Assembly (NCBI GenBank): GCA_009779045.1
Contig: WREZ01000016.1
Coordinates: forward strand, 1-12,355
From: Candidatus Bathycorpusculum sp.
GTDB taxonomy: Archaea > Thermoproteota > Bathyarchaeia > Bathyarchaeales > Bathycorpusculaceae
DNA: 12,355 nt
Direction of reading: 5' to 3'
A program made the translations under genes and the position numbers. Numbering within the stretch: position 1 is the stretch's first letter; every line of letters begins with the position of its first letter. The notes beneath the pieces were generated by a model. It searched no databases. It saw only the letters and a program-made list of their open reading frames with translations, and was not told the DNA's origin. Of the stretch, positions 2,671 to 12,355 are shown piece by piece.

Positions 2671-4476
2671 ATGAAAGCGTTTGTAATTCATTATCCGTTT
2701 GGCGTTGCCGCTTTTGGTGAAGAGAACCATTTAGTTGAGAAGGTTTTGTTTTCTAAAAAGCCTCAGGCAGCTGCGAAGTGTTTGCTTAAAATTGAGTCAG
2801 GTAAACCGTCTGATGAGTTTTTTTCTTTAGTGTCTTTGCTTTGTGATGTTGGTTATGACGTATTTGTGTTTGAGAATGCTAGTATTGCATCTGAGGTTCA
2901 AAAGAGTAATGATAATTTAAAGGTGGCTGTTGCTTCTTCTGTTGAGGCTGAGGCGTTGCGTGGTAGGATGAGTGAGGTGGCTCTTTCTTTATATTTTGTT
3001 GATGATGAGCAAGAGTTGGCTCTTTGGAATCGTAATGTTAGTTTAGAGTTGGCAAAGTTGCGTATTAAGGGGGCTTCTGAGAAGCGTGATTTAATTGTTG
3101 GTCAGGCTATTCAGACTTTGGATGATTTGGATAGATCGGTTAATTTGTTTATGGCTCGTTTGCGTGAGTGGTATGGTGTTTATTTTCCTGAGATGGATCG
3201 TTTAATTGAGAAGCATGAGACTTATGCTCGTTTGGTTTTGAATTTGGGTGATAGGGATAATTATACTTTTGATACTGTGGTGGCTGAGGGGCTTCCTAAG
3301 GAGCGTTCTGAGTTGGTGGCAAAGACTGCGCAGTCTTCTATGGGTGCTGATGTTTCTGAGGTTGATTTGAAGCAAATTCAATGTCTTAGTCGTGATGTTC
3401 TTAATTTGTATGAGTTGCGTAAGAACATGGAATCCTATGTTGATAATTCCATGGAGGAGCTTGCGCCAAATGTTAAGGCGGTTGCGGGTGCTCTTTTGGG
3501 TGCTCGTTTAATTGCTATGGCGGGTAGTTTGCAGAATTTGGCTATGCGTCCTGCTAGTACTATTCAAGTTTTAGGTGCTGAAAAGGCTCTGTTTCGATCA
3601 TTAAAGACAGGTGCTAGGCCTCCTAAGCATGGCTTAATTTTTCAACATACTTTGTTGCATGATGCAAAGCGTTGGCAGAGAGGAAAAATTGCGCGTGTTA
3701 TAGCTGGTAAGCTTTCTATAGCTGCAAGGGCTGATGCTTTTGGCGGGAACTTTATTGGTGATCGACTAAAAGCTGAAATTAATAAGCGTCTTGACGAGAT
3801 TTATGAAAAATACAAAGACGCGCCTCCTCCAAAAGAGCCTAAACCTAGAGAAGAACACCGTGACCGTGAACCACGATTCAACCGTGGCGGTGGTGGTGAG
3901 CGTCGGGGTCGATTCGGAGGCGGTGGTGGTGAGCGTCGGGGTCGATTCGGAGGCGGTGGTGGTCGAAGAGGTAACTATGGTGGCGGTGGTGGTGGTGATC
4001 GTAACCGTAACCGTAGCAGTGGTGGTGACGGTGGCGATAGGGGTCGCAGTGGCGATGGTGGTGGCGATCGATTCCGTAGAGACGACAAAAAGTTCTATGG
4101 CGACGATGGTGGCAGTGGTAAATTCCGCACCAACAGCGACAGTAATACCGTTAACAGTACCAGTGTCAGTGGCAGTAGTGACAATAGCAGTAGTGGTGGC
4201 AGTGGCGGTAGTAGCAATAGTGGTAAGTCCCATAGTGACGATGGTGGTAGTGGTAAATTCCGTGGCCATAACGATGGTGGTGGTAAAAGTAGTGGCAGCG
4301 ATGGCGGCGGTGGTAGTGGTGGTGGTGAGCGGCGAAACCGATTTGGCGGTAGTGGTGGTGGTGAGCGGCGAAACCGATTCGGAGGCGGTGGTGGTGAGCG
4401 TCGGAGACGATTTAGTGGTAGCGGTAGTGGCAGCAGCAGTAGTGGTGGTGGTGGTGAGCGTCGGAGACGCGAGTAG
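2671..4476 (+). CDS. nop5: Nop5 (archaeal Nop56/58), box C/D RNP scaffold with long GAR-like tail
   Basis: Nop5 bridges L7Ae-bound box C/D guide RNA and fibrillarin in the RNA-guided 2'-O-methylation complex. Residues 1-120 form the fibrillarin-binding N-terminal domain, about 125-260 the coiled-coil region used for self-association, and about 265-357 the Nop domain. The Nop domain carries the signature GARLIAMAGSLQNLA (278-292), then GAEKALFR and HGLIFQH. The core ends near 392, normal for archaeal Nop5. About 210 further residues follow, made of Gly, Arg, Ser and Asp in units such as GGGGERRGRFG and GGGERRNRF. Usual archaeal Nop5 tails are short and Lys-rich. I chose ATG 2671 because GAGG (2660-2663) lies 7 bases before it; a GTG one codon earlier is also in frame. 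Flanking composition is G/T-rich. The fibrillarin gene follows after 1 base. Confidence 0.93.
   Translation: MKAFVIHYPFGVAAFGEENHLVEKVLFSKKPQAAAKCLLKIESGKPSDEFFSLVSLLCDVGYDVFVFENASIASEVQKSNDNLKVAVASSVEAEALRGRMSEVALSLYFVDDEQELALWNRNVSLELAKLRIKGASEKRDLIVGQAIQTLDDLDRSVNLFMARLREWYGVYFPEMDRLIEKHETYARLVLNLGDRDNYTFDTVVAEGLPKERSELVAKTAQSSMGADVSEVDLKQIQCLSRDVLNLYELRKNMESYVDNSMEELAPNVKAVAGALLGARLIAMAGSLQNLAMRPASTIQVLGAEKALFRSLKTGARPPKHGLIFQHTLLHDAKRWQRGKIARVIAGKLSIAARADAFGGNFIGDRLKAEINKRLDEIYEKYKDAPPPKEPKPREEHRDREPRFNRGGGGERRGRFGGGGGERRGRFGGGGGRRGNYGGGGGGDRNRNRSSGGDGGDRGRSGDGGGDRFRRDDKKFYGDDGGSGKFRTNSDSNTVNSTSVSGSSDNSSSGGSGGSSNSGKSHSDDGGSGKFRGHNDGGGKSSGSDGGGGSGGGERRNRFGGSGGGERRNRFGGGGGERRRRFSGSGSGSSSSGGGGERRRRE
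3886..3951 (+). repeat. nop5: tandem 33-bp repeat in the nop5 tail, two copies
   Basis: Two identical in-frame 33-base units (3886-3918 and 3919-3951) each encode GGGGERRGRFG. A third copy starts at 3952 but departs after GGGG. Repeat slippage of such units probably built and varies the tail. Confidence 0.85.
4318..4389 (+). repeat. nop5: tandem 36-bp repeat in the nop5 tail, two near-identical copies
   Basis: Units at 4318-4353 and 4354-4389 encode GGGERRNRFGGS and GGGERRNRFGGG. A diverged third unit follows, encoding GGGERRRRF. DDGGSGKFR is also encoded twice elsewhere in the tail (near 4102 and 4237). Confidence 0.75.
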
Positions 4477-5633: not shown

Positions 5634-6440
5634 ATGAGTTCTCTTCCTATTAAGAAAAAATCTGTAAAGGAATTCATTTTGCTTAGTTTACTTGATGGTG
5701 AAAAGGCTTTAGGGACTCTTGTAAATGAAAGTGAGGTGAAGATTGGAGACGGTGAGAGGAAGGGTGGCTCTACTGTTTCACATGATTTAAGGAAATTAGA
5801 GGATTTAAACTTAATTGTGAAGCGTAATGGTAAATGTTCGTTAACTTCACGTGGACTTATTGAAGCACAAATCTGTAAATCGTCTTATGCATCTACGGCT
5901 GTACTTGACTCTTATCAAGACTTCTGGTTAACCCATGATATAACACGTCTACCTCCTACATTAATGGTAGATATTGGTGCTTTATCAGGATCGACTGTAC
6001 TTACAGCTACGCCATCTGACCTTCATTTTGTTCATTCACATTGCGTAGAAGCGATTCATTCTGCAAAAGCTATTCGTGCTATCGCCCCCATATATCATCC
6101 AGATTATATCTCTGCCTTTAGAGAACGTCTCAATTTAGGAATCAAAATACAATTAATTGCTACTCCAATTATTATGGAAAAACTTGAAACAGAAGCACCT
6201 GACTTGTTCAGCAAATATGTTGATACGGGTGATTTTCAACTATTTATAAACGACGATTTAGGAATTGCTATGGTTTTAACTGACAGCAGTTACACATTTG
6301 GATTATTTGATTTGAATAAACGATATGATGCTAATGCTAATATGTTTGGTACTGGGCAGAAAGGGCTTGTTTGGGCTTCCCGCTTATTTGCTTTAACTCT
6401 TTTAGATAGTGTACCATATGTATATCCAAAAAAACCCTGA
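5634..6440 (+). CDS. FilR1-like transcriptional regulator (winged helix + FilR1 middle domain)
   Basis: The 268-residue protein has an N-terminal winged helix at about 8-80. STVSHDLRKLEDLNLIVKRN (about 46-65) is the recognition helix and wing start, and KCSLTSRGLIEAQ follows. A linker leads to a C-terminal domain of the FilR1_middle type (formerly DUF1724): FWLTHDITRLPPTLMVDIGAL (about 97-117), then a region reading IHSAKAIRAIAPIYHPDY, LGIKIQLIATPIIMEKL, an acidic IND segment, and YTFGLFDLNKRYDANAN. This architecture is essentially archaeal; the founding member regulates filament formation and methanogenesis genes in Methanothrix. The ligand and targets here are unknown. ATG 5634 has only a weak AGGT site 9 bases upstream. 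The gene is monocistronic, and the upstream palindrome suggests autoregulation (inference). Confidence 0.82.
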   Translation: MSSLPIKKKSVKEFILLSLLDGEKALGTLVNESEVKIGDGERKGGSTVSHDLRKLEDLNLIVKRNGKCSLTSRGLIEAQICKSSYASTAVLDSYQDFWLTHDITRLPPTLMVDIGALSGSTVLTATPSDLHFVHSHCVEAIHSAKAIRAIAPIYHPDYISAFRERLNLGIKIQLIATPIIMEKLETEAPDLFSKYVDTGDFQLFINDDLGIAMVLTDSSYTFGLFDLNKRYDANANMFGTGQKGLVWASRLFALTLLDSVPYVYPKKP

Positions 6441-7412: not shown

Positions 7413-7520
7413 ATGAAAGAGAAATATTTAATCTTAAGCAACACCATTATTAACATAAAGGAAATAGTGGTGACCTATAGTATGGAAGCTAAACGCTTAG
7501 GGGACACAACTAAAAAATGA
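7413..7520 (+). CDS. leader ORF (35 aa) overlapping the NRPS start by ATGA
   Basis: A frame from ATG 7413 to TGA 7520 encodes 35 residues beginning MKEKYLILSN and ending LGDTTKK. Its last bases form ATGA with the NRPS start (ATG 7517, TGA 7518-7520), a classical translational-coupling overlap. An internal in-frame ATG at 7482, with GGTGA (7469-7473) eight bases before it, could give a 12-residue version. The NRPS ATG itself has only a distant G-run (7500-7503), so entry by coupling is plausible. The peptide is not an MbtH protein (those are about 70 residues) and resembles no family I know. It may be purely regulatory or a chance frame in the leader. Confidence 0.35.
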   Translation: MKEKYLILSNTIINIKEIVVTYSMEAKRLGDTTKK

Positions 7521-10500
7521 GAAGAGATCCTCAATGTTATCCGCTTTCTATTCCACAAAAAGGAATATGGTACACTGAAAAATTCTATTCCGGTACTAAC
7601 ATTGCAGGGATATCAGCAACGGTGCGCCTAAAAATGCCTCTTGATTTTTCTTTATTGGAGCAGGCTATAAATTTAGTGATTGAACACAATGATTCTATGC
7701 GCATCAATGTCTGTATGATTGACAACAAGCCGCACCAATTTGTAGTTCCGTACATCTATAAAAAACTTGAGGTCAAGGATTTTACTGCTACAGACGATAG
7801 TGATATCTATACGTGGAGTATGAATATGACTAAAACACCACTTTTTGCGGAGAATGCTGATCTCTATAGGTTTGTGGTGCTTAAAATTGATGCGAATACA
7901 TGTGGTTATTTTGTTATGCTCCATCATTTGATAAGCGACGCGTGGAGTATGATTATGGTCGGCAATGAAATCATGCGTTATTATTTTAACCTGCAGAAAG
8001 GCGTAATAGATAGGATGTCAAAACCGTCCTATCTGGTTTATTTGGCGGAAGAAAACGTTTATGTCAACTCTGAACGTTATAAAAAAGATGCCACATTTTG
8101 GCGTGAACAATTTGAGACCATACCCGAACATGTTGGAATAAAGGCGCGTAAAAGCAATGAAATAAGGTCTGATGCCGTACGCAAGAGCTATGTCCTGAAA
8201 AGTGAGTTGTGTCACGCGATACAAAAATATTCTAAAGACTCCCAAGTGTCGGTTTTCGTAATATTGATGAGTTCTTTTATGCTATATTTAAACCGCCTTA
8301 CCGGAAGCGACGATACGGTGTTAGGTGTGGCCGTGCATGGGCGGTATAACGCGGAAGCAAAGAAAACGTTGGGAATGTTCGTCTCGTCTATCCCTTTCCG
8401 CTTTAAAGTAGACCCGAAGGATACATATTCCACTTTCATTCAGAAGCTCTTCAGGTGCTGGCTGAGCGTTTTGCGCCACCAACGCTATCACATAGATCAT
8501 ATTCTGCAGGATATGCGTAACCGTTTCGGAGAGGTGACCCGACTTTATGATATCGTGTTTTCTTATCAAAACGCTAAATTCGAACAGCAAGAAGGTTCTT
8601 TGCAGTTGGGTTCCAAATGGCATTTCAACGGTCATCAGAACGAGTCCCTCATAATTAACTTCAATGAACGCGATAATGACGGCGTTATCATGTTAGATTA
8701 TGATTTTTTAACAGACCTCTTTCATACCGAGGATATTGACGCAATGCACGACCATTACGTCAACATACTTTGGCACGCACTGAGCGCCCCATCAAAACAG
8801 GTAAAAAATATTGAGATAGTTTCTGAAAAAGAAAAGAATTTAATTCTAAACGAGTTTAATGATACGGCAAAAGATTTCTCTAACGACCGTACGGTGCTAG
8901 ATTTTTTTGAGGCACAAGTGGCGTGTTGTCCAAACAAAGTCGCCGTCCTTTTTGAAGACAACTCGCTTACTTATTCTGAACTTAATGTGCGGGCAAACGC
9001 TCTGGCGATGTTACTAAGAAGCAAAGGGGTTAAACGCGGGAGCATTGTCGCGATGATGCTTTACCGTTCTTTTGAAATGATGATAGGTATCTTGGGCATT
9101 TGGAAAGCGGGGGGCGCTTACCTGCCTATTGACCCCGAATATCCAAAAGACCGCATAGAATATATGCTTAAAGATAGCAAATCGTCTATATTGCTAACTA
9201 CAGCGTCAATTGAAAAACAACTAACTTTCAAGGGTGAAATCCTACAGATTGACAATGATTCTTACAGTGCAGATAAATGCCTTGAAAATGCAGCGGAGCC
9301 CAGCGATGTCGCTTATGTGATTTACACATCGGGTTCTACCGGACAAGCGAAAGGTGTAATGGTGGAACACCGTGCCCTCGTGAATCGCATACAATGGATG
9401 AACCGTAAATACCCCTTGTTGGACGACGATGTTATTTTACAGAAAACCACTTACACATTCGACGTTTCAGTCTGGGAACTTGTATGGTGGTTTTTTGCGG
9501 GCGTAAAACTGGTGTTTCTCCCACCTGCCGCCGAAAAATATCCAGACAAGCTTATTGATGCGATAAACTCCTACCAAATAACCACATTGCATTTTGTGCC
9601 GTCTATGCTAAACGCGTTTCTTTGCTTTGTCGATACGAATCATAATCACAACTGCCTCATCAGTAGTCTTAGAAAAGTGTTTGCAAGTGGTGAGGTGCTT
9701 ACCCCCCAGCAAGTTAACCGGTTCAATACCTGCATACATTCGGTTTCTGGTGCGCGACTCTACAATCTTTACGGTCCAACGGAAGCAGCTATCGATGTTT
9801 CATATTATGACTGCCCAATAGAACCCGACCAGCGCATAGTTCCCATAGGTAAACCCATTGACAATATACAATTATACATTGTTGACAAACACATGAACCT
9901 GCAACCTATCGGGGTTTCCGGGGAACTTTGCATCGGCGGGGTCGGCCTTGCTCGTGAGTATATCAATAAACCTGAACTTACAACGGAAAAATTCGTGCCT
10001 AATCCTTTCAAACAGGGTGAGCGTCTTTATAAGACCGGTGACTTGGTTCGGTGGTCTCAAAAAGGGGATATTGAATATTGTGGGCGAATGGATTTTCAGG
10101 TAAAAATCCGTGGATTCCGTATCGAGCTAGGCGATGTCCAATATCATCTTGAACAGATTCCGTCCGTGAGAGAAACGGTGGTCACCTGTTTTGAAAATCC
10201 TGCAGGCGGCAAATACCTTGCTGCTTATTATGTTTCTGATACTGACCTCCTTGTATCTGATATACGTGATTTCCTAGTTAAACGGCTTCCAGACTATATG
10301 ATCCCTTTCTGTTTCATTCGTGTAGACCAGATTCCGCTTTTTAGTAACGGTAAGGTAAACGTGTCTCTTCTTCCAAAACCACCTGCCACGATATGTGCCG
10401 CTCACCTACAAAAAATCATTTTGCCGAGAAACAAAACGGAGGCGCTTGTGATGCGAGTCTGGTCTGAAACGCTTGGCATAAACGAGTTAAGCGTGACCGA

Positions 10501-11431
10501 TAATTTCTTCACAATGGGTGGCGATTCTATAAGCGCAATCAATATGGTCTGTCGTATGCCCACTACGGTTAACGTCAGCAAAGTTTATGAGTATCCCGTT
10601 TTGGCAGATTTTGCGCGCTATTACAACGAAAAAGATAGCAGCGGGATCCTCGTGCGGCTATCCGGAGAGGAAAATGCTACACGGAGCTATATACTCTGTC
10701 CTTACGGCGGTGGTGGCGCATATACATATCTGAGTCTCGCTAAGGCGCTTTCCCTACAGGATCCATCGTGTTGCGTTTATGCCGTGAATCTTCCGGGGCA
10801 TGATTATGAGTCAAAAGACGGTTCTTTTCTGCCGATTAACGACGTTGCTGCATTGATTCTGAAAGAAACGACGAAACGAGTTTCCGGTAAGATAGTCATC
10901 TATTCGCATTGCGTCGGCGCGGCACTAGGTGTTGAACTGGTCCACCTGTTGGAACTTGCCAAAGCCAACATAGAAGCGTTCTTTGTCGGGGGTGTTATTC
11001 CTCCCGCTAATGTTGGTATATATGGCTGGTTTTTTGATCCTTGGATGTTTGTTAGAGATAAACGGCTCCTAAAGTTTTTGATTTCGCTGGGGCTTTCTGA
11101 GGGGAATGTGGTTCAAACGCCTCAAACATCTCAAACAGGCCTAAAAGAGATGCAAAAGTTGCTGAAAGCATTCCGGTATGACGTGCGTTCTTATTACCGG
11201 TATTTCGCTAAACGAGCGTCTAACAAGCAAAAAAAGCTAGGTGTTCCCATTTTTTCAATTCTTGGGGAATTAGATCAAATGACAAAGCGTTCGGGTGGAA
11301 CTCGTAATTGGCAGCTAATCTGCGATGCGCCGATGCAAACTATTAAAATTAAAGGAGCGCGTCATTATTTTATTAAAACGCATGCGACGGAATTGGCCGA
11401 GATAATGACGCGGACTTTACAAAATAAATAA
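7517..11431 (+). CDS. non-ribosomal peptide synthetase, C-A(Ser)-T-TE, EntF-like layout
   Basis: A 1304-residue cytosolic synthetase. The condensation domain (about 7-430) has HHLISDA at 136-142 (Ala in place of the usual Gly of HHxxxDG). The adenylation domain (about 455-950) has YTSGSTGQAKG 603-613, FDVSVWE 648-654, YGPTE 752-756, GELCIGG 802-808, YKTGD 838-842 and NGK 944-946. The carrier domain has GGDS with Ser1004 for phosphopantetheine. The thioesterase (about 1055-1300) reads SHCVG 1130-1134, with Cys1132 at the nucleophile position, Asp1253 and His1283. By alignment with GrsA in my head, the pocket residues are D649 V650 W653 H692 F722 S724 L751 I759 D760 K946, reading DVWHFSLIDK, the serine code of EntF-type enzymes. 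EntF is about 1290 residues with the same order. An N-terminal C domain implies an incoming acyl group. GC looks higher and codon use more even than in neighbours, suggesting transfer from bacteria. A phosphopantetheinyl transferase must lie elsewhere. Confidence 0.93.
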   Translation: MRRDPQCYPLSIPQKGIWYTEKFYSGTNIAGISATVRLKMPLDFSLLEQAINLVIEHNDSMRINVCMIDNKPHQFVVPYIYKKLEVKDFTATDDSDIYTWSMNMTKTPLFAENADLYRFVVLKIDANTCGYFVMLHHLISDAWSMIMVGNEIMRYYFNLQKGVIDRMSKPSYLVYLAEENVYVNSERYKKDATFWREQFETIPEHVGIKARKSNEIRSDAVRKSYVLKSELCHAIQKYSKDSQVSVFVILMSSFMLYLNRLTGSDDTVLGVAVHGRYNAEAKKTLGMFVSSIPFRFKVDPKDTYSTFIQKLFRCWLSVLRHQRYHIDHILQDMRNRFGEVTRLYDIVFSYQNAKFEQQEGSLQLGSKWHFNGHQNESLIINFNERDNDGVIMLDYDFLTDLFHTEDIDAMHDHYVNILWHALSAPSKQVKNIEIVSEKEKNLILNEFNDTAKDFSNDRTVLDFFEAQVACCPNKVAVLFEDNSLTYSELNVRANALAMLLRSKGVKRGSIVAMMLYRSFEMMIGILGIWKAGGAYLPIDPEYPKDRIEYMLKDSKSSILLTTASIEKQLTFKGEILQIDNDSYSADKCLENAAEPSDVAYVIYTSGSTGQAKGVMVEHRALVNRIQWMNRKYPLLDDDVILQKTTYTFDVSVWELVWWFFAGVKLVFLPPAAEKYPDKLIDAINSYQITTLHFVPSMLNAFLCFVDTNHNHNCLISSLRKVFASGEVLTPQQVNRFNTCIHSVSGARLYNLYGPTEAAIDVSYYDCPIEPDQRIVPIGKPIDNIQLYIVDKHMNLQPIGVSGELCIGGVGLAREYINKPELTTEKFVPNPFKQGERLYKTGDLVRWSQKGDIEYCGRMDFQVKIRGFRIELGDVQYHLEQIPSVRETVVTCFENPAGGKYLAAYYVSDTDLLVSDIRDFLVKRLPDYMIPFCFIRVDQIPLFSNGKVNVSLLPKPPATICAAHLQKIILPRNKTEALVMRVWSETLGINELSVTDNFFTMGGDSISAINMVCRMPTTVNVSKVYEYPVLADFARYYNEKDSSGILVRLSGEENATRSYILCPYGGGGAYTYLSLAKALSLQDPSCCVYAVNLPGHDYESKDGSFLPINDVAALILKETTKRVSGKIVIYSHCVGAALGVELVHLLELAKANIEAFFVGGVIPPANVGIYGWFFDPWMFVRDKRLLKFLISLGLSEGNVVQTPQTSQTGLKEMQKLLKAFRYDVRSYYRYFAKRASNKQKKLGVPIFSILGELDQMTKRSGGTRNWQLICDAPMQTIKIKGARHYFIKTHATELAEIMTRTLQNK

Positions 11432-11449
11432 ACTATTGAGTGTTGAATT

Positions 11450-12355
11450 ATGAGAAACAAAAATTATCCATTTTATGTGACTGAACCAGTGCGTAACCTG
11501 AAGGAGTTGATAGATTTTGCGGCGGAAAAATATGGTGACATGCCTGCTTTTACTTATGAAAGAAAAAAAGAAAGGGTTAGTGTTAGTTATCGTCAGTTTA
11601 AATTGGATATAGAAGCGTTGGGGGTGGGTTTGTTTCATGAATGTTCTGGTCGGTGTACTGTGGCGGTTATTGGTGAAAATTCTTATGAGTGGATATTGTC
11701 GTATTTTTCTGTGGTAAATAGTGGGAACGTTATTTTGCCGTTGGATAAGGATTTGTCTGTTGCGGAGATAAAGAATTTGTTGAATGCTTCTGGTGCGGTG
11801 GTGCTTGTTTTTTCGGATGATTATTCTGATGTTGCGGATCGTTTGTGTGAGGATGCAGTAAATATTAGGCGTTATATCAATATGAATCAGGTGCGCGAAT
11901 TAGTTAATTTAGGTGTTGAGATAATGCGAGATGGTAGTAGGGGTGTTGTGGATTGTGAAATAGTTGATGGTTCTTTGGCGGCGCTTTTGTACACGTCTGG
12001 AACGACTGGCACGTCCAAAGGTGTGATGCTTTCGCATGGTAATTTGGCGAATAATGTGGTGGCTGCTTGTCGGAATGTGGATATACTTGGGAGTAATATA
12101 TTGTTGCTTCCCCTTCATCATTCTTTTGGTTTTGTAGCGGGGGTTTGTGTTATGATATTGAAAGGTAGTGAAACCTGTATTAATTCAAGTTTTAAAAATA
12201 TGCTTTCGGATCTGCTAAAGTTTAAGCCGTATAATCTGTTTTTGGTGCCGTTGTTTGTTGAGACGTTTTATAAAAAAATATGGGCAGATGCTAAAAAGCA
12301 AGGTAAAGATAAATTGTTAAAGAGAATGATTGGTATTAGTAATATGTTGTTAAAA
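11450..12355 (+). CDS. AMP-forming acyl/aryl-acid ligase, 3' end outside the window
   Basis: The frame from ATG 11450 stays open for 302 codons to the window edge. It is an ANL-superfamily enzyme: the phosphate loop is YTSGTTGTSKGVMLSHGNL (181-199), and PLHHSFGFVAG (221-231) is the segment typical of long-chain acyl-CoA synthetases and fatty acyl-AMP ligases. The N-terminal part (LIDFAAEKYGDMPAFTY at about 20-36, SYRQF at 46-50, VAVIGENSYEW at 71-81) agrees. Full members have 500-600 residues, so about half is missing, including the C-terminal lid. The start lies 18 bases after the NRPS stop, so the two are almost certainly co-transcribed. It probably activates the acid that the NRPS condensation domain joins to serine, directly or through a carrier encoded downstream. 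Coding bases are G/T-rich, unlike the NRPS. Confidence 0.85.
   Translation, partial: MRNKNYPFYVTEPVRNLKELIDFAAEKYGDMPAFTYERKKERVSVSYRQFKLDIEALGVGLFHECSGRCTVAVIGENSYEWILSYFSVVNSGNVILPLDKDLSVAEIKNLLNASGAVVLVFSDDYSDVADRLCEDAVNIRRYINMNQVRELVNLGVEIMRDGSRGVVDCEIVDGSLAALLYTSGTTGTSKGVMLSHGNLANNVVAACRNVDILGSNILLLPLHHSFGFVAGVCVMILKGSETCINSSFKNMLSDLLKFKPYNLFLVPLFVETFYKKIWADAKKQGKDKLLKRMIGISNMLLK

Follow-up and report, generated by a model that had tools for sequence, protein, structure and literature searches.

How a single-module nonribosomal peptide synthetase (NRPS) came to lie among archaeal genes, and what it would release, are the questions raised by contig WREZ01000016.1 of Candidatus Bathycorpusculum sp. 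(assembly GCA_009779045.1). The window analyzed here is this whole contig, 12,355 nucleotides (C16 of genome G000), which ends at position 12355 inside the second gene of the NRPS locus. The genome (1,375,305 bases in 225 contigs) is the metagenome-assembled genome (MAG) Lab288P4_bin25 (WREZ00000000), assigned in PMC7886697 to lineage TB1, Candidatus Termiticorpusculum, and derived from the hindgut (compartment P4) of the termite Labiotermes labralis; a second MAG of its phylotype is Lab288P3_bin115, and the name Candidatus Termiticorpusculum resolves to Candidatus Bathycorpusculum in the NCBI taxonomy. Completeness is 87.87% by the tool used here versus 96.3% in PMC7886697, the two figures presumably being different estimates. 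With little more than even confidence, we lean toward a one-module synthetase that came from gut Clostridia and would release an N-acyl-serine β-lactone in the manner of ObiF1.

The synthetase gene (7517..11431; this and all other features of the locus lie on the + strand) encodes 1304 residues in the order condensation (C), adenylation (A), carrier (T) and thioesterase (TE). The initial annotation had described this single C-A-T-TE module, and Pfam matches far above chance bear it out: Condensation at residues 7-443 (E 5.3e-75), AMP-binding at 464-815 (E 2.7e-88), PP-binding at 978-1035 (E 6.1e-8), and weak thioesterase/abhydrolase matches at 1059-1298 (E 7.3e-6 and 5.5e-6). Searches with the NRPS protein returned 7833 proteins at E<=0.001; our statements on its relatives rest on the best 120 of them, and the counts below come from an alignment of 39 proteins of 1000-1400 residues among those 120, the window NRPS included. 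The condensation domain (residues 7-443; 7535..8845) carries the active-site motif HHLISD at residues 136-141 (7922-7939), with H136, H137 and D141 of HHxxxD kept in all 38 aligned proteins that reach the site; its PDB ranks are mixed and identify no subtype, EntF and ObiF1 both scoring low. In the adenylation domain (8906..10360), motif-anchored alignment reproduces the pocket DVWHFSLIDK, reported initially as serine-type, from residues 649, 650, 653, 692, 722, 724, 751, 759, 760 and 946. The same pocket occurs in 32 of the 39 proteins, the variants being DVWHFSLVDK (5), DVWHFSLIEK (1) and DVWHISLIDK (1). Read against the pocket positions known for GrsA and the code of EntF, it predicts L-serine as the substrate. 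The peptidyl carrier domain (10448..10621) has its phosphopantetheine site at Ser1004 (codon 10526-10528), and this Ser is present in 39/39 proteins. The features expected of a functional NRPS are present: an intact HHxxxD motif, adenylation core and carrier Ser, and a phosphopantetheinyl transferase (PPTase) in the genome.

What the enzyme would release depends on the thioesterase domain (residues 1043-1304; 10643..11428), which is closest to those of ObiF1 and SulM. Its nucleophile is Cys1132 in the motif SHCVG (10910..10912), a Cys in 38/38 aligned proteins reaching the site. The alignment register places Gly1159 (10991..10993), the equivalent of ObiF Gly1173, where EntF-type enzymes have the triad Asp; at this site, position I, the aligned proteins have Gly (33/38) or Ala (5/38) and no triad Asp. 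The triad Asp, Asp1253 (11273..11275), lies at position II, after the penultimate strand, a RifR/ObiF-like placement at which it aligns with IGGQDP of ObiF1 and is Asp in 38/38; His1283 (11363..11365), likewise invariant in 38/38, completes the triad. Among proteins of solved structure the best sequence relative is ObiF1, followed by RifR and BorB. The modelled fold is closest to 6n8e (ObiF1) and 8w2c (SulM), which score clearly higher than the type II enzymes that come next. EntF is not among the 10 thioesterase matches at E<=0.01, and the VIA comparison, which holds no EntF row, gives no evidence for a different fold.

Comparison with characterized systems sharpens this picture. ObiF1, the obafluorin synthetase of Burkholderia diffusa (PDB 6n8e), has the same C-A-T-TE order and the same Cys-His-Asp triad, with Asp placed as in RifR, Gly where EntF has its Asp, and His before the Cys, and is the best thioesterase match in both sequence and structure. 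The two enzymes differ upstream of release: ObiF uses an aromatic β-hydroxy amino acid and a dihydroxybenzoyl group, whereas the archaeal NRPS has a serine pocket and an adjoining acyl-CoA-type ligase; they also differ at the first residue of GXCXG, which in the archaeal NRPS is Ser, unlike the ObiF-type motif. SulM (sulfazecin; PDB 8w2c, 8w2d) closes a β-lactam from a diaminopropionate residue, is the terminal module of a larger synthetase, and has a reported Gln-Cys-Asn motif where the archaeal enzyme has His-Cys-Val. EntF (enterobactin synthase F), to which the locus had been likened in the initial annotation, shares the domain order, and its serine pocket, by the code we assume for it, differs at one position; its nucleophile is Ser. 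The triad Asp of EntF sits on the usual strand (PMC6668435), whereas the archaeal Asp has moved. The likeness to EntF thus holds for order and substrate and is not supported for the release domain, where ObiF1 is the best match. The observation itself is confirmed, and an ObiF/SulM-like interpretation replaces the EntF one.

We propose that L-serine, as the pocket predicts, would be adenylated and then loaded on the carrier domain, which would probably be activated by the Sfp-like PPTase of the genome. The condensation domain would transfer the acyl group of a thioester to the serine amine; because this domain comes first, the donor must come from outside and is most likely an acyl-CoA made by the adjoining ligase. 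Cys1132 would take over the N-acyl-serine, and attack of the serine side-chain hydroxyl on the thioester would yield an N-acyl-serine β-lactone, as in obafluorin synthesis by ObiF1. The product would be an electrophile and could act as a signal, an enzyme inhibitor or an antibiotic. An N-acyl-serine, its cyclic oligomer or a lactone had been predicted at the outset, so a lactone was already on the list; the Cys nucleophile, the repositioned Asp and the lack of an EntF match (E<=0.01) and of a stand-alone aryl carrier (E<=0.001) shift the expected product away from linear or oligomeric serine esters and toward an N-acyl-serine β-lactone.

The putative partners of the synthetase are a neighboring ligase and a PPTase on another contig. 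The ligase gene (11450..12355; AMP-binding, Pfam) begins 18 bases after the NRPS stop, as annotated initially; the arrangement is operon-like, and its first 302 residues are present before the contig end cuts it. Its nearest matches in NCBIfam and the PDB are acyl-CoA ligases, in keeping with the earlier view of a fatty-acyl-type rather than an EntE-type enzyme, the NCBIfam matches all lying under every curated cut-off shown; named relatives include a protein of Enterocloster clostridioformis (53% identity). The names EntE and DhbE appear neither among the best 60 of 87 ligase matches nor among the best 25 of 101 for the relative P0127, which was found on no viral contig. The C-terminal part of the ligase was not found in the genome, where pieces of other AMP-binding enzymes are only weakly identical (at most 40%), and the window end overlaps none of five other contigs of the genome. 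Contig C92 was considered as the missing end and rejected, its first residues continuing another ligase, the one at the end of contig C14: positions 1-531 of C92 (L015) and the end of C14 (L016) share an 11-base exact overlap and are seemingly one acyl-CoA-ligase gene. C92 also carries, at 623-1261 on the - strand, a chloramphenicol-acetyltransferase family gene (PF00302, E 1.2e-27), here in an archaeal genome. The PPTase, whose presence the initial annotation had suggested checking, is represented by one match, Sfp-like by two Pfam domains. Beside it lies a gene for a FAAL-ACP-thioester-reductase protein (1068 aa), and the pair, at 1129-5073 of contig C10 (L003), is possibly a fatty-aldehyde-forming system. 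This protein contains the one other carrier domain in the genome at E<=0.001, a threshold at which no stand-alone aryl carrier was found. Across the genus, PPTase and carrier domain occur together, each in an identical set of 8 among 32 genomes, and since among these a full condensation domain is present in G000 only, the pair appears to be older in the genus than the NRPS.

Among the matches listed, full-length C-A-T-TE relatives range from 70% to 42% identity and a partial one, P0025, reaches 80%; in a tree of 40 rows the window NRPS pairs with P0025 inside the C-A-T-TE family. The window NRPS, or a near copy of it, was also listed on another contig, the longest being 33,828 bases. The named close relatives listed are Clostridia, and most rows of the tree are without a named host, so the family may have other archaeal members. 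Clostridial C-A(Ser)-T-TE(Cys) proteins (P0014 of Lab288P3bin203, P0024, P0026 and P0029) share architecture, pocket and triad at 47-62% identity; our literature searches found no product for them. A single scan of named genomes gave three loci, the closest (L019, 62%) in the Clostridiales MAG Lab288P3bin203, whose name shares the Lab288 sample-series code with the archaeal MAG, Lab standing for Labiotermes labralis (PMC7886697). In L019 (2305-9050) only 4 bases separate the C-A(Ser)-T-TE(Cys) gene from a downstream seven-transmembrane (7TM) histidine kinase (HisKA_7TM), and a response regulator comes next, whereas the archaeal locus has a ligase at this place. In L020 (8839-15171) a C-A(Ser)-T-reductase gene with the same serine pocket has a HisKA_7TM kinase 0 bases downstream. 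The two kinases are 43% identical and orthologous, and the open reading frame (ORF) lists of L019 and L020 show no ligase directly beside the NRPS. The predicted release products, a lactone from the thioesterase and an aldehyde from the reductase, would both be electrophiles, and a shared sensor beside the serine module suggests a signalling role.

Several observations weigh against ring closure. The thioesterase tree sets the archaeal domain together with RifR, BorB, ObiF1 and SulM apart from two Ser-type domains (99/98), both of which are long-branched and one of them short; within the group ObiF1 joins RifR and BorB (84/73), the inner order being unresolved. SHCVG breaks the quoted GXCXG motif at its first position, where the aligned proteins have A (20), S (8), G (6) or T (4 of 38); SulM itself, however, reads AQCNG in the alignment, and the ring-closing group is therefore not defined by a literal match to GXCXG. 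A Cys proves nothing on its own, since AB3403 has a Cys nucleophile and keeps its Asp in the usual place (PMC11298585), and other NRPS thioesterases among the matches listed also have Cys. The MbtH-like domain that ObiF carries as an integral part (PMC6668435) has no Pfam match in the archaeal NRPS, the search having covered the NRPS itself and not free MbtH proteins elsewhere in the genome; product, acyl donor and activity, moreover, are all predictions. A RifR-like thioesterase might simply hydrolyze the intermediate and give N-acyl-serine in linear form, which would be a lipid-like amino acid. RifR and BorB, both type II enzymes, place the Asp identically and are the next best sequence matches; type II enzymes also follow in the structure comparison, and the families are not separated in the tree. 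RifR (3fla row) and BorB, however, have Ser as nucleophile in the alignments, the Cys in 38/38 combined with the ObiF-type Gly or Ala argues for ring closure, and ObiF1 and SulM score clearly higher. We regard hydrolysis as unlikely. Iterative release of the EntF type would give a cyclic oligo-(N-acyl-serine) ester, a siderophore-like metal ligand; it would account for the domain order and the serine pocket, and the NCBIfam EntF model does score 522.6 bits. That score is far under the EntF cut-off of 2400, and the different triad architecture, the thioesterase and ligase matches and the want of an aryl carrier described above make such release highly improbable; the trilactone was rejected as first choice on the triad. 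Whatever the release chemistry, the product might be an intercellular signal that bacterial relatives read through the 7TM histidine kinase and that the archaeon emits without a receptor. The kinases 4 and 0 bases downstream of serine modules favor this tentative idea, whereas the pairing comes from two loci, ligand binding is a prediction, and at E<=0.001 no HisKA_7TM match was found in the archaeal genome, whose completeness the tool puts at 87.9%.

The β-lactone reading also requires that the gene belong to the archaeon, and here composition speaks against it: the codon score of the NRPS lies below those of all 439 own ORFs of at least 250 codons, a reference taken from 105 of the 225 contigs. 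Archaeal genes do share the contig, namely Nop5 (Pfam), fibrillarin and a FilR1-type regulator (Pfam; 5634..6440, + strand), the archaeal gene closest to the NRPS on its left side, and the archaeal setting assumed initially is right at the level of contig and bin; a native composition is not seen. Recent transfer explains the foreign codon usage, and a chimera would explain it too, a clostridial NRPS having been falsely joined, or the contig misbinned, in the 1.08 kb between regulator and NRPS, which hold no ORF of at least 80 aa. A false join would also fit a GC content at third codon positions (GC3) at the 97.5th percentile of own ORFs, clostridial names among the close relatives, one of them with the same host code, and rarity: the condensation family matches in 5 of 256 genomes of the class, is over the cut-off in 3 and covers nearly the full profile in G000 only, as expected from the rarity first claimed. 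Yet GC3 is 0.44 versus 0.75 in L019, and codon fractions correlate at 0.82 with a small, hand-picked set of archaeal genes versus 0.10 with L019, although the larger comparison does not favor native composition. With codon scores at the 9.8th and 83.6th percentiles, respectively, ligase and regulator fall inside the genome's own range, and in two sister genomes fibrillarin is separated from the following operon by other sequence. We consider a chimera unlikely and favor acquisition of the NRPS from gut Clostridia. A search of 2544 plasmid records gave best places all below 60% identity, and a FilR1 search meant to bridge the junction through another contig gave 7 relatives, the longest contig being 3,855 bases, which was of no help.

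The flanking genes place the locus in the genus. Nop5 is present in 32/32 genus genomes and relatives of the FilR1-type regulator in 10 of the other 31. None of 10 sister loci matches the window right of fibrillarin. Nine were compared further, L095 being excluded since its contig stops shortly past fibrillarin, and six of these nine share a gene set downstream of fibrillarin (in L094, DsbD-like, HGD-D, BadF and BadF). In four sisters the DsbD-like operon starts within ~200 bases of fibrillarin; in two others the distance is ~2.3 and ~4.6 kb, so that elsewhere, too, this place holds additional sequence. In G000 the same operon is on contig C101, where positions 1-680 (L193), upstream of it, hold by eye a small antitoxin-like ORF and short remnants only. 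In the window, a possible 12-codon leader ORF (7482..7520, + strand), also seen by eye, overlaps the NRPS start as ATGA and has GGTGA upstream at 7469-7473. Elsewhere in the window are a Bro-N/DinD-like fragment (109-516, - strand; 135 aa, profile positions 5-135 of 288, 205.6 bits versus a cut-off of 242) and a GNAT acetyltransferase-like protein (1600-2142, - strand) with a weak Pfam match under the cut-off, and Nop5 (3766-4476) has a long C-terminal tail rich in Gly, Arg and Ser, where local GC is high.

To our knowledge, β-lactone closure on assembly lines is known from very few pathways. Searches that were narrow and covered few subscription journals found, among the papers listed, none on a natural N-acyl-serine β-lactone synthetase; the "N-acyl-serine lactone" in the title of PMC8981730 refers, per its abstract, to acyl-homoserine lactones. 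NRPS clusters as such have been reported in archaea before, in an antiSMASH survey (PMC10105419). In the boldest version of our proposal, which we think improbable, a termite-gut bathyarchaeon runs a clostridial N-acyl-serine β-lactone synthase on its own PPTase and thereby produces a strained electrophile, while Clostridia couple the same core, ending in a lactone-forming thioesterase or an aldehyde-forming reductase, to a 7TM kinase; electrophilic N-acyl-serine signals would then form a new class, which the archaeon could emit or counterfeit. More broadly, a one-module family this compact, sharing the catalytic signature, predicted to use serine and with named members in Clostridia, would offer reactive gut metabolites from a source that is easy to test. 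If the gene is archaeal, it would illustrate how a PPTase already in place can give archaea access to bacterial natural-product chemistry by acquisition.
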